Assembly (NCBI GenBank): GCA_009839585.1
Contig: VXPI01000034.1
Location: forward strand, 1-5,836
Reading direction: 5' to 3'
From: Gammaproteobacteria bacterium
GTDB taxonomy: Bacteria > Pseudomonadota > Gammaproteobacteria > Arenicellales > Poriferihabitantaceae
Length of the DNA stretch: 5,836 nucleotides
Both the position numbers and the translations under genes were made by a program. This document shows, piece by piece, positions 1 through 5,790 of the stretch; the stretch's first letter is position 1; each line of letters starts with the position of its first letter. The notes under the pieces are model-generated. The model saw nothing but the letters and a program-made list of their open reading frames with translations, searched no databases and was not told the origin of the DNA.

Positions 1-1119
1 GTCATACCTCATCGCGCCCGGCAAGAAATGATACTGGATATCGGGCCACTTGATTTCCGGGCCTGATCGAATGAATGCACAAGACTCAAAATGATTGGTC
101 GCACCCAGACCGGTCTTGAAGAGTTTCCATTGCAACCCGATTTTGAACTTGTTCCAGAAATCAAGCCTTGAATTCAAGGTAACCTGGCGTTGGCAACGAA
201 ACTGAAAATAGAATTCCAGATGATCCTGAAGATTCTTGCCGACACCCGGCAAATCATGCAGGACTTCAATACCTGCGTCCTGTAGGACTTGACCCGGGCC
301 AATGCCTGACAGCTGAAGGATTTGCGGTGAACCGATCGACCCAGCACAGACAATCACCTCCTGCCTGACCGGCACGAATTGATCCTGGGATCCCACCCGG
401 TATTCGACTCCTGTTGCACGTTTATCCTGCAAGCGAATCCTCTGCGTCAATGCACCCGTTATCACTTCGAGGTTGGTTCTGTTGAGTGCCGGTTTGAGGT
501 AGGCATTGGCGGAGGACCACCGGACACCGGCCTTGACCGTCATGTGCATCGGCCCAAACCCCTCCTGGCGATATCCATTGTAGTCTTCAGTCTTTCCATA
601 GCCGGCCTGCACACCAGCTTCAATGAACGCCTTGTAGAGCGGATTTGCCATTTCATTGCCATTGTTAACGGCAAGCGGTCCACCCTGACTTCGATAATCA
701 TCTGCCCCGTACTTCCAGTCATCCGCTTTCCTGAAGTACGGCAGACAATGCCGATAATCCCAGCCTTTCGCCCCGGCATCTGCCCACTCGTCAAAATCAT
801 GGGCATGTCCTCGCACATACACCATGCCGTTGATTGAAGAAGATCCCCCCAATACCTTGCCGCGCGGACAGTGCATACGGCGGTTGTCCAGACCCGGTTC
901 TGGTTCAGAATGAAACTGCCACGCAAAACGTTCCGTGTTCATTGGAATCGAAAGTGCAGTAGGCATTTGTATGAATATACTGCGATCCGACCCACCATAT
1001 TCAAGCAATAAGACCCGGGTTTCAGGATCTTCACTAAGGCGACTTGCCAGAACGCAGCCCGCCGAACCTGCGCCGATTACCACATAGTCAAAACCTTCTT
1101 GATCGACACTATGATTCAC
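1..1119 (-). CDS. betA: choline dehydrogenase-like GMC flavoprotein (BetA type), C-terminus cut by window edge
   Basis: This is an FAD-dependent GMC oxidoreductase. BetA oxidises choline to betaine aldehyde and on to glycine betaine, passing electrons to the respiratory chain. The 373 visible residues show the Rossmann FAD loop GAGSAG (16-21), the first GMC signature GKVLGGSSSIN (87-97), the second signature around GSIGSPQILQLSGIG (260-274), and PGVGKNLQDH (291-300). Stretches such as RRM near 80, NGM near 97, EGFGPM near 186, NHFE (342-345) and IQYHFLP (361-367) align with E. coli BetA as I recall it. The catalytic His pair lies in the missing C-terminal part; the full family length is about 550 residues. 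The start is GTG 1119; there is no ATG in frame between the GNAT stop (1156) and the FAD motif, and its Shine-Dalgarno is weak. It follows the GNAT gene by 36 nt. The alternative is a DddA-type alcohol dehydrogenase acting on 3-hydroxypropionate, which belongs to the same family and would suit the DddP neighbour. GMC membership is near certain; the substrate is less so. Confidence 0.85.
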   Translation of the reverse strand, partial: MNHSVDQEGFDYVVIGAGSAGCVLASRLSEDPETRVLLLEYGGSDRSIFIQMPTALSIPMNTERFAWQFHSEPEPGLDNRRMHCPRGKVLGGSSSINGMVYVRGHAHDFDEWADAGAKGWDYRHCLPYFRKADDWKYGADDYRSQGGPLAVNNGNEMANPLYKAFIEAGVQAGYGKTEDYNGYRQEGFGPMHMTVKAGVRWSSANAYLKPALNRTNLEVITGALTQRIRLQDKRATGVEYRVGSQDQFVPVRQEVIVCAGSIGSPQILQLSGIGPGQVLQDAGIEVLHDLPGVGKNLQDHLEFYFQFRCQRQVTLNSRLDFWNKFKIGLQWKLFKTGLGATNHFESCAFIRSGPEIKWPDIQYHFLPGAMRYD

Positions 1120-1155
1120 TGGTTTACTTGCACCCGATACCGCACTTTGGGCATG

Positions 1156-3709: not shown

Positions 3710-5790
3710 GGTTTCCACCCATTTTTATTGACCCGGATCAGGGCATCGACAGCAACTGCTCCCGATTCACCTACGATCAACGGATTGATCTCGATTTCAT
3801 GAATATTCTGCCCAAATTTACTCATCACGCCTGCTACCTGCTTTATGGTATTGACCAGTTCCTCTACATCTGCATGCCTGCGTCCTCGATATCCAGTAAG
3901 AAGTGGCCAGATTTTCAGGGCACGCAACGCTCCAAGAATCTGCTCGTCATCAACCGGTAGCATTAACAGCTGATTGTCATTGATCATCTCGACCAGCGTG
4001 CCCCCCGCACCAATCATCAGAAAATGACCAAACTGGGAATCATGGCTGATGCTCACCATCAGTTCAACGACATGGTCATCCACCATCTTCTCGACACGCA
4101 CACTTTGCCATTTCCCAAGCATGCGTTGAACCCCAGCCCTGACTTGTTCCATTTTCCTCAACCCGATCATAACAGCACCTGCCTCGGACTTGTGCTCAAG
4201 ATTTGAGTCCAATGCCTTGATAACAACCGGAAGTCCGATTTTGCCGGTTGTTTCGAGTGCATCCGAGACACTATGCACCCGCTCCCCAGGAGGCACGGAT
4301 ATCTGCCATTTTTCCAGCAACTGCTTGGATGTATGCTCATCCAGACTTTCCATGCCCTCTGCACTCGCCAACGAACCGAAGAATGATATTCGAGGTGGCG
4401 GTACTGGACATTTCCATCTCATCCCCACCTGGCTGAGCGATTCAATAGCCGCCAGCGCCTGACTCATACCCTGTAATGGTACAACCCGGTTATCAATCAG
4501 GTACTTGCCAGTCTCGCGTGTCATGTTCTCCGAAATACTGCTGACAACAACCCCCTTGACCTGATGTTCCTGACAGGCCTTGACGTAGGCCTGCACGGTC
4601 CCTATCCAGTCTGAATCATCACAGCACTCCGGATCCGGAAAATCGATCACCAGGATAAACAGGTCAAAATCTCCTTCCATCATGGCCGAGAACATGCGGT
4701 GGGTACGATCATAATCTCCCCAGATAAACGTATGGTAGTCGAGCGGATTGGACAGGGAGACATAACTGTTGAGGGTTTCTCCAAGCAGCAATTTATGCTC
4801 CGGCGTGAACGCAGGAAACTGCAAGTTTCGGTCAATCACCAAATCTGCAAGTAATGAGGCCTCCCCTCCTGAACAACTCATTGACACCAGACGATTACCA
4901 TCAAGTGGCCCATGAACATAAGCCAGCTTCAGGGCCTCCAGAAATTCTTCGGCTGTATCAACCTGACCCACCCCCAGTCGCTGGAAGAGCTCCGAATAGA
5001 GGCGCGACTCTCCCGCTAGGACTGCCGTATGGCTTTGCGTGATTTTCGAACCGATCTCCGATTTCCCGGACTTGAGTACGATGATCACAATGCTCCTTTC
5101 CCGAGCATGCCCCGCTATCCGGATAAATCGCGGCACATCCCTCAGGCCTTCGATATGCAGCCCTATGGCCCGAATATTCTCACATTCCAGGGCCGCTTCC
5201 AGTGCATCCTCTATCCCCATTACCGCCTGGTTGCCGACAGTAATCAACCATGCTATCGGCAGGTTACGTTGTTGCAGGGTAAAGTTGATGCCGAGATTTC
5301 CACTGGCCGTTATGATCGCAACCCCCTGATTCACCCGATACAGGCCGTGCTGGTCCGGAAACAGCACAGCACCCGTTAGTGCATTGATATATCCATAGCA
5401 ATTGGGCCCCAGCACTGGCATTGACCCCGCTGCCTGAACCAGCCTCTGTTGTCGCTCTTCACCCAGTTCACCTACTTCCTTGAAACCCGATGCCAGACAT
5501 ACCACACCCCCAACACCCATTGCCTCCAGAAAACCCACAAAATCCACAGACTGATCCGCGGATATGCCTAGAAACACGGCATCGGGGACCTTCGGCAACT
5601 CCTTAACGTGTTTGACACAGGAAATACCTGCCAACTCTGACCGATTTGGATTGACTGCCCACAAGATGCCCTGATAAGACAGTTTTGCGCACTGCTCGAG
5701 AACCCGTTCCGATTCCCTGCCCCCAACAACCGCAATCGACTTCGGGTTCAGAAAACGAAGCAGCCGTTCCCGATCAAGATGAAAGATGAA
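3688..5790 (-). CDS. ADP-forming acyl-CoA synthetase (acetate-CoA ligase family), alpha-beta fusion; start unresolved
   Basis: This NDP-forming enzyme makes an acyl-CoA from a carboxylate, CoA and ATP through phospho-enzyme intermediates. With residues counted from TTG 5664 (658 residues), the order is: CoA-binding Rossmann domain, with its first strand and glycine loop (LNPKSIAVVGG) encoded upstream at about 5751-5719; the GPNCYGYIN segment (86-94); SASGN-like TASGNLGINF (119-128); the phospho-His loop SHTAVLAGE (211-219, His212); a second flavodoxin-like subdomain with SCSGGEASLLAD (263-274); then the ATP-grasp part with VVIKALDSNLEHKSEAG (480-496, His491 matching the beta-subunit His), GAGGT (552-556), GYRGR (591-595) and EIEINPLIV (623-631). 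The whole open frame gives about 700 residues, the normal fused length. No ATG, GTG or TTG occurs between TAA 5793-5791 and TTG 5664, so the coordinates give the open frame; candidates are the rare ATC 5787, CTG 5763 or CTG 5751, or a frameshift upstream. It probably supplies the CoA thioester to the hydratase; acrylate or a betainyl acid is the inferred substrate. Confidence 0.85.
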   Translation of the reverse strand, partial: FIFHLDRERLLRFLNPKSIAVVGGRESERVLEQCAKLSYQGILWAVNPNRSELAGISCVKHVKELPKVPDAVFLGISADQSVDFVGFLEAMGVGGVVCLASGFKEVGELGEERQQRLVQAAGSMPVLGPNCYGYINALTGAVLFPDQHGLYRVNQGVAIITASGNLGINFTLQQRNLPIAWLITVGNQAVMGIEDALEAALECENIRAIGLHIEGLRDVPRFIRIAGHARERSIVIIVLKSGKSEIGSKITQSHTAVLAGESRLYSELFQRLGVGQVDTAEEFLEALKLAYVHGPLDGNRLVSMSCSGGEASLLADLVIDRNLQFPAFTPEHKLLLGETLNSYVSLSNPLDYHTFIWGDYDRTHRMFSAMMEGDFDLFILVIDFPDPECCDDSDWIGTVQAYVKACQEHQVKGVVVSSISENMTRETGKYLIDNRVVPLQGMSQALAAIESLSQVGMRWKCPVPPPRISFFGSLASAEGMESLDEHTSKQLLEKWQISVPPGERVHSVSDALETTGKIGLPVVIKALDSNLEHKSEAGAVMIGLRKMEQVRAGVQRMLGKWQSVRVEKMVDDHVVELMVSISHDSQFGHFLMIGAGGTLVEMINDNQLLMLPVDDEQILGALRALKIWPLLTGYRGRRHADVEELVNTIKQVAGVMSKFGQNIHEIEINPLIVGESGAVAVDALIRVNKNGWKPWTTENQ
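3715..3720 (-). promoter_or_regulatory. ribosome binding site of the CaiD-like hydratase gene
   Basis: GGGTGG on the minus strand lies 5 nt upstream of ATG 3709 and inside the last codons of the synthetase gene. It decides for ATG 3709 over GTG 3718, since the GTG itself falls within this purine run. It fits translation coupled to the overlapping upstream gene. The match to the anti-Shine-Dalgarno sequence is moderate. Confidence 0.45.

Follow-up and report, generated by a model that had tools for sequence, protein, structure and literature searches.

A predicted butyrobetaine-to-glycine betaine gene run with a DddP-like M24 gene in an Arenicellales bacterium

In Sinorhizobium meliloti, the enzyme BcoAB is reported to form gamma-butyrobetainyl-CoA from ATP, CoA and butyrobetaine (PMC8364193), and a carnitine dehydrogenase of this species is reported to hydrolyse betainyl-CoA as well (PMC12482172). 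The Pseudomonas aeruginosa operon caiX-cdhCAB-hocS is described as serving carnitine and short-chain acylcarnitines (PMC5806209). Here we compare with these systems a stretch of 5,836 nucleotides (the window), contig VXPI01000034.1 of the gammaproteobacterial assembly GCA_009839585.1 (order Arenicellales), which encodes, next to a ligase and a hydratase, a protein of the M24 family that resembles DddP, the lyase that makes acrylate and dimethyl sulfide (DMS) from dimethylsulfoniopropionate (DMSP). An earlier note on this DNA had proposed a DMSP route built around a DddP-type lyase, with the hedge that the substrate may instead be carnitine-like. It is the hedge that our analysis supports, since the operon partners match butyrobetaine/carnitine genes. 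With a probability of about 0.8, as judged from sequence comparisons, the run to which these genes belong would convert gamma-butyrobetaine to carnitine and then to glycine betaine, and the M24 protein would act on a trimethylammonium compound and not on DMSP.

The gene run and its predicted pathway

The window is an entire contig (C394) of a metagenome-assembled genome of 2.42 Mb, which comprises 420 contigs and is 75.6% complete. Its five genes, all on the minus strand and tightly spaced as the earlier note had described them, belong to a longer gene run, of which they form the downstream portion. The first 98 bp of a second contig of the same genome (C288) align to the last 98 bp of the window (5739..5836, no strand assigned), with 95 identical positions and 3 mismatches, and the operon goes on in C288 with genes for an acyl-CoA dehydrogenase, a short-chain dehydrogenase/reductase (SDR), a carnitine dehydrogenase and BKACE. 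These are 91, 86, 90 and 95% identical, respectively, to their copies in the same-genus genome G003, the match of the carnitine dehydrogenase spanning its full length. In G003 all nine genes occupy one contig, where BKACE is followed by carnitine dehydrogenase/thioesterase, SDR, acyl-CoA dehydrogenase, ligase, CaiD, M24, GNAT and GMC, and the whole run was found on a single contig in four of six same-genus genomes (G002, G003, G006 and G004, the last cut at both contig ends).

When plasmid records were searched for homologs of the ligase and the acyl-CoA dehydrogenase, most matches were rhizobial. In Rhizobium sp. NXC14, genes for BKACE, carnitine 3-dehydrogenase, acyl-CoA dehydrogenase, ligase and carnitinyl-CoA dehydratase are consecutive, and the corresponding proteins of the window's genome (the hydratase being the last) show 66, 47, 59, 43 and 60% identity to them. 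This core set of bco-cdh type (BKACE, carnitine dehydrogenase, acyl-CoA dehydrogenase, ligase and CaiD-type hydratase) is present in the window's genome across the two contigs. Thioclava carries the same five genes in a different order, Ruegeria conchae has three of them (acyl-CoA dehydrogenase, ligase and dehydratase) and, about 3.6 kb upstream, an MttB gene, and the NXC14 run recurs on pSymB of S. meliloti Ak57, where the ligase frame is unannotated and broken in the record (L162, 11379-13405) and has intact homologs in other rhizobia. From gene position we infer that BcoAB is the ligase of this rhizobial operon. Because the core order is the same in NXC14 and because a butyrobetaine:CoA ligase has been published for S. 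meliloti, the run is predicted to lead from butyrobetaine to betaine. Gene content, gene order, the overlap of the two contigs, family scores and the tree were read directly from the sequences; the reactions of the operon core are predictions, to which homology and gene order give good support.

The ADP-forming acyl-CoA ligase (3688..5784, minus strand; Pfam domains CoA_binding_2, Succ_CoA_lig and ATP-grasp_5), a predicted gamma-butyrobetaine/crotonobetaine:CoA ligase, would form butyrobetainyl-CoA or, alternatively, crotonobetainyl-CoA. Crotonobetainyl-CoA would also be the product of the acyl-CoA dehydrogenase, and the CaiD-like enoyl-CoA hydratase (2921..3709, or with a start at 3718; minus strand), which appears from its NCBIfam match to be a divergent CaiD-like protein and is a predicted crotonobetainyl-CoA hydratase, would turn this into carnitinyl-CoA. 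Thioesterase and carnitine 3-dehydrogenase would then lead by way of L-carnitine to 3-dehydrocarnitine, which BKACE would cleave, with acetyl-CoA, to betainyl-CoA, and hydrolysis of the latter by the thioesterase would release glycine betaine. A thioesterase had been noted as not visible; the operon does have one, in the form of a domain fused to the carnitine dehydrogenase. In G003 this protein scores 595.2 bits against an NCBI equivalog cut-off of 592 and ends in a C-terminal 4HBT_2 thioesterase domain, a score that belongs to the G003 copy, to which the C288 copy of the window's genome is 90% identical.

The BetA-like GMC oxidoreductase (1..1119, minus strand; GMC_oxred_N) would oxidise choline, and so supply betaine, or else a related alcohol. 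It is cut by the contig end and scores 615.4 on PRK02106 (cut-off 605); on the betA model TIGR01810 (cut-off 732.1) the fragment reaches 527.5 and the full-length G003 homolog 797.4. Beyond GMC in G003 lies an opposite-strand gene whose product weakly resembles phosphonate-type binding proteins, and 2.4 kb past GMC, on the operon strand, are genes for MttB and for a DAO-FAO_M-GCV_T protein of the dimethylglycine-dehydrogenase type, enzymes that may demethylate glycine betaine. The SDR and the GNAT acetyltransferase-family protein (1156..1647, minus strand; PF00583, 61.7 bits) fall outside the explained steps of the pathway.

With the likely starts, the range of junctions given by the earlier note was recovered: from ligase to hydratase, M24, GNAT and GMC, there is a 22-nt overlap followed by gaps of 9 to 21, 16 and 36 nt. 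The ligase frame, which stops at 3688, has no usual start codon in the window's contig and has an in-frame stop just upstream. Its likely start, the one used by relatives (5782-5784), is disrupted by one base, and both the C288 overlap and a same-genus copy differ there; a contig-end error or strain variation is the likely cause.

An M24 protein at least 66% identical was found in 21 of the 24 genomes of the window's family that were searched, its own included. Within 8 kb of it, these 21 genomes have CaiD in 14 cases, the ligase in 13 and GMC in 11 (in G011 the contig stops 0.4 kb past M24, with GMC beyond sight), and because of these counts the clustering of the window's genes exceeds chance. 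A carnitine dehydrogenase (at least 67% identity) and BKACE (at least 88%) are present somewhere in all seven genomes of the genus, on another contig in G001 and some 16 kb away on the same contig in G005.

The M24 protein, DddP and gene neighbourhoods

The M24 gene (1664..2911, minus strand, with a start at 2911, 2902 or 2899) encodes a DddP-like protein that, on the evidence of Pfam, the DddP model, the tree and gene contexts, lies outside the DddP clade and has a predicted trimethylammonium substrate. In a sequence search of the PDB, the closest solved structures were two DddPs (331 and 315 bits), with the M24 protein ranked after them at 65 bits; the match to RdDddP had E = 9.4e-98. Identity to two solved DddPs is 42 and 39% (RdDddP and RlDddP are among the references). 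The likeness comprises the M24 fold, all six metal ligands of DddP, Tyr366 and Asp377, the catalytic residues being those given in PMC4108388. Retention of these residues was rejected as a test of DddP membership, for nearly the whole wider family has them: of 125 family rows, rhizobial and betaine-linked members included, all 125 have the metal ligands and Tyr366, and 120 have Asp377. Other residues do separate the clades, such as the one beside Asp377, which is Cys in 12 of 12 rows of the DddP clade and Ala in 20 of 20 rows of the window's clade.

On the NCBIfam DddP equivalog NF043017, the M24 protein scores 399.9 bits against a cut-off of 600. A tree of 69 rows placed it in a clade of 41 rows (support 100/99), apart from a 13-row clade, also supported at 100/99, that holds RdDddP, RlDddP, three annotated DddPs and paralogs from G001, G003 and G007. 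A quick tree of 127 rows, of which the 69 are a subset and from which nine loci were left out (duplicates, truncated ones and L160), likewise set M24 apart from the DddPs, with some relatives of 50-56% identity switching sides between the trees. A phylogeny outside DddP was what the earlier note had named as evidence against its DMSP route, and this is where M24 came out, in trees from which confirmed fungal DddPs are absent. Clade, model score and partners that match the butyrobetaine/carnitine operon all set the window's M24 protein apart from DddP, and the DMSP route around a DddP-type lyase did not hold up.

A second, more DddP-like gene occurs in all six other genomes of the genus (536-567 bits on the DddP model) and in G007 (575 bits). 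The cut-off of 600 is passed in nine of the 40 relatives, and six of these nine belong to the window's family; the 14 operon copies of M24 score 375-413 bits. At E-values of 1e-100 or lower, the window's own genome showed no DddP-like paralog, perhaps because it is incomplete. Should these bacteria cleave DMSP by an M24 enzyme, this paralog would be the better candidate. A different M24 protein, 37-38% identical, is encoded on contig C341 of the window's genome (L043, 5953-7215), together with an ABC permease gene; its orthologs in L053 and L061 have common neighbours.

Outside the window's family, neighbours were counted at 97 loci, one M24 per locus, with 6 duplicate loci, 21 window-family loci, 3 annotated DddP loci, the outgroup, L114, L117 and L160 left out. 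An MttB gene lay within 8 kb of M24 at 23 loci and any tested quaternary-amine gene at 37, a count that is biased upward because the Rieske, BCCT, betaine-binding, PhyH, GBBH and BHMT references came from M24 loci, the MttB count being unbiased. Thirteen loci (L149-L161) had been hand-picked from plasmid record lists. The 40 relatives (G000-G039) have 0 to 17 MttB genes per genome, the window's genome 7, and an MttB gene near M24 is expected by chance at an estimated 5% or so; the rough binomial of 4e-10 is overstated, the loci being related and drawn from wider taxa than the 40 relatives used for the MttB rate.

Individual loci illustrate the partners. M24 is found with MttB and sarcosine oxidase genes in Parasedimentitalea, with BCCT and Rieske genes in Pseudomonas sp. 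MPC6, with betaine-homocysteine methyltransferase and MttB in Terrarubrum, and with MttB, isochorismatase-family and betaine transport genes in Sinorhizobium and Shinella. In Rhizobium leguminosarum, Rieske, reductase and M24 genes are consecutive, with betaine transport and hydroxyproline epimerase genes near, and in Leisingera the gene 32 bp before M24 combines GBBH-like_N and TauD domains in the manner of butyrobetaine hydroxylase. Tandem divergent M24 pairs adjoin an MttB gene in L130 (924-3657) and L140 (9725-12455). Consecutive genes for a Rieske oxygenase, a reductase and a DddP-like M24 protein were seen in rhizobial and Paraburkholderia loci (L151, 7503-11164; L152, 7513-11167; L156, 5440-9089), their M24 annotated only as Xaa-Pro peptidase and the Rhizobium loci having betaine transport genes near. 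In marine loci (L080, L081, L085, L086, L088, L092 and L094-L097), an M19 dipeptidase gene comes after M24, with a DUF3726 gene in some and MttB upstream in several.

A number of observations weigh against a butyrobetaine/carnitine role for the run and its M24 protein. The top NCBIfam model of the window's hydratase is indeed crotonobetainyl-CoA hydratase, at 319.5 bits, below the equivalog cut-off of 500. The earlier note had advised looking beyond the window for cai or bet genes and transporters: carnitine genes did turn up on C288, but no BCCT transporter was found in the window's genome at its 75.6% completeness. Nearly all catalytic residues of DddP are kept in M24, and DMSP lyase activity is possible. 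None of the tested quaternary-amine genes occurs within 8 kb of M24 at 60 of the 97 loci, and adding L114, L117 and L160, all misses, brings the counts to 23 of 100 for MttB and 37 of 100 for any such gene; the Alisedimentitalea locus, for example, has other oxidases and none of the tested genes. A Rieske gene lies near one of the three annotated DddP loci, and such neighbours are not exclusive to clades other than DddP. Within the family, G009, G013, G018, G019, G021, G022 and G023 have no CaiD within 8 kb of M24. Genes for ABC transport, an alpha/beta hydrolase, PHP, a helicase and a nuclease surround it in one of these genomes, with single ones of these in three other loci. Because seven of 21 family genomes have M24 among other neighbours with no CaiD nearby, the link of M24 to the operon is not obligatory, and no shared theme was found among the neighbours of M24 orthologs away from it.

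Candidate roles of the M24 protein

Gene partners and clade suggest that the M24 protein likely acts on a nitrogen-based (trimethylammonium) compound and not on DMSP. It may cleave a substrate that feeds the carnitine route, and our best guess, held with low confidence, is an acylated carnitine, a class of compound on which hocS of the P. aeruginosa operon presumably acts as acylcarnitine hydrolase. A more specific version, itself quite unlikely, would have M24 work as an acylcarnitine beta-lyase that removes the alpha proton and expels the fatty acid, leaving crotonobetaine for the ligase and CaiD. This idea is a chemical analogy to the proposed mechanism of DddP, alpha-proton removal with loss of the beta substituent (PMC5395565), which would fit acylcarnitine; 2-methylbutyryl- and hexanoyl-carnitine are reported from sponges (PMC8805237). 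If it were true, DddP would be a branch, adapted to sulphur, within an older enzyme family that acts on quaternary-ammonium compounds. For M24 taken alone, a plain peptidase or amidase role is at least as likely. Such an enzyme would release a compound of betaine type from an amide or peptide; alternatively, the gene would be a passenger that contributes nothing to the pathway. This explanation, somewhat on the unlikely side, agrees with the M24 peptidase fold recognised by Pfam, with the Xaa-Pro peptidase of public annotation, with the M19 dipeptidase gene that follows M24 in 10 of the 97 loci, and with the seven family genomes where M24 sits away from the operon; yet M24 is inside the run in 14 of the 21, recurs beside quaternary-amine genes in other lineages, and is far closer to DddP than to any solved peptidase.

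That closeness, with the two DddP structures as nearest relatives and all six metal ligands, Tyr366 and Asp377 in place, is also what commends M24 as a divergent DddP making acrylate and DMS, with ligase, hydratase and GMC taking acrylate through 3-hydroxypropionate. The ligase superfamily contains DddX and a 3-hydroxypropionate:CoA ligase, the top NCBI model of the acyl-CoA dehydrogenase is acryloyl-CoA reductase (286.6 against a cut-off of 640), DMSP pathways have been reported for a sponge symbiont from the LS-SOB family (PMC10356861), and a confirmed fungal DddP is reported to be just 32% identical to RdDddP (PMC4108388). We consider this route very unlikely, given that M24 lies outside the DddP clade, that its operon partners are carnitine genes, and that the other six genomes of the genus each have the DddP-like second gene, two of which (from G001 and G003) were placed in the DddP clade along with one from G007. 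Beta-alanine betaine (3-trimethylammoniopropionate) is the nitrogen look-alike of DMSP. An onium lyase acting on it would produce trimethylamine and acrylate, the CoA enzymes serving acrylate as well as the carnitine series; the retained DddP residues and the company of methylated-amine genes are compatible with this, but the rhizobial operon accounts fully for the CoA enzymes and is free of M24 within about 10 kb in two Rhizobiaceae loci, and we regard such a lyase as the most improbable of these roles.

Implications and comparison with known systems

The predicted butyrobetaine/carnitine run bears on how dddP is counted. In a survey with a cut-off such as the 1e-70 used in PMC5395565, M24 genes of this kind would probably be scored as dddP because the match to RdDddP has an E-value below that, even though their neighbours point to carnitine, and DMS potential could be overestimated where it is derived from counts of genes. 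That DddP-like M24 genes turn up repeatedly next to quaternary-amine genes opens the origin of DddP to testing. The window's bacterium is a relative of sponge-dwelling bacteria (the Arenicellales family LS-SOB takes its name from a glass-sponge MAG; PMC10356861), and a sponge is its inferred home. Carnitine and acylcarnitines have been reported from sponges (PMC9999580, PMC8805237) and a carnitine-using guild of sponge symbionts has been proposed (PMC5649159), for which the run would offer a concrete operon.

The ligase belongs to the same superfamily as DddX, the ATP-dependent DMSP lyase, and keeps its phosphohistidine (His292), while Glu432, the proposed base, aligns with Asp and the match of Trp391 varies with the aligner. 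DddX was rejected as its identity, the window's ligase being 27% identical to DddX and 43% to the ligase of the Rhizobium operon. The cai operon of Escherichia coli resembles the run in its CoA ligase, its CaiD and the butyrobetaine, crotonobetaine and carnitine series, and differs, as described in PMC2131755, in its CaiB CoA transferase, its CaiT transporter and the reduction of carnitine to butyrobetaine, where the window's run has an ADP-forming ligase and enzymes leading onward to betaine. It was rejected as a match, the ligase coming from another superfamily and the genome yielding no BCCT. With caiX-cdhCAB-hocS of P. aeruginosa the run shares the passage from carnitine through dehydrocarnitine to glycine betaine and an extra terminal gene; in that operon as described in PMC5806209, no ligase, acyl-CoA dehydrogenase or CaiD is named, and hocS stands in place of M24.

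The closest system is the rhizobial butyrobetaine/carnitine operon (the S. meliloti bco region and the NXC14 plasmid), which has the same core order at 43-66% identity and to which the window's genome adds the internal SDR and the terminal M24, GNAT and BetA-like GMC genes. In the two Rhizobiaceae loci, an ABC transporter stands where the window's genome has M24-GNAT-GMC. No description of an M24 gene in a carnitine operon was found in the literature as judged from titles and abstract openings, which is no proof of absence. The operon core is already known, the addition of M24-GNAT-GMC appears to be new, and the locus would be a variation on an established kind of operon.

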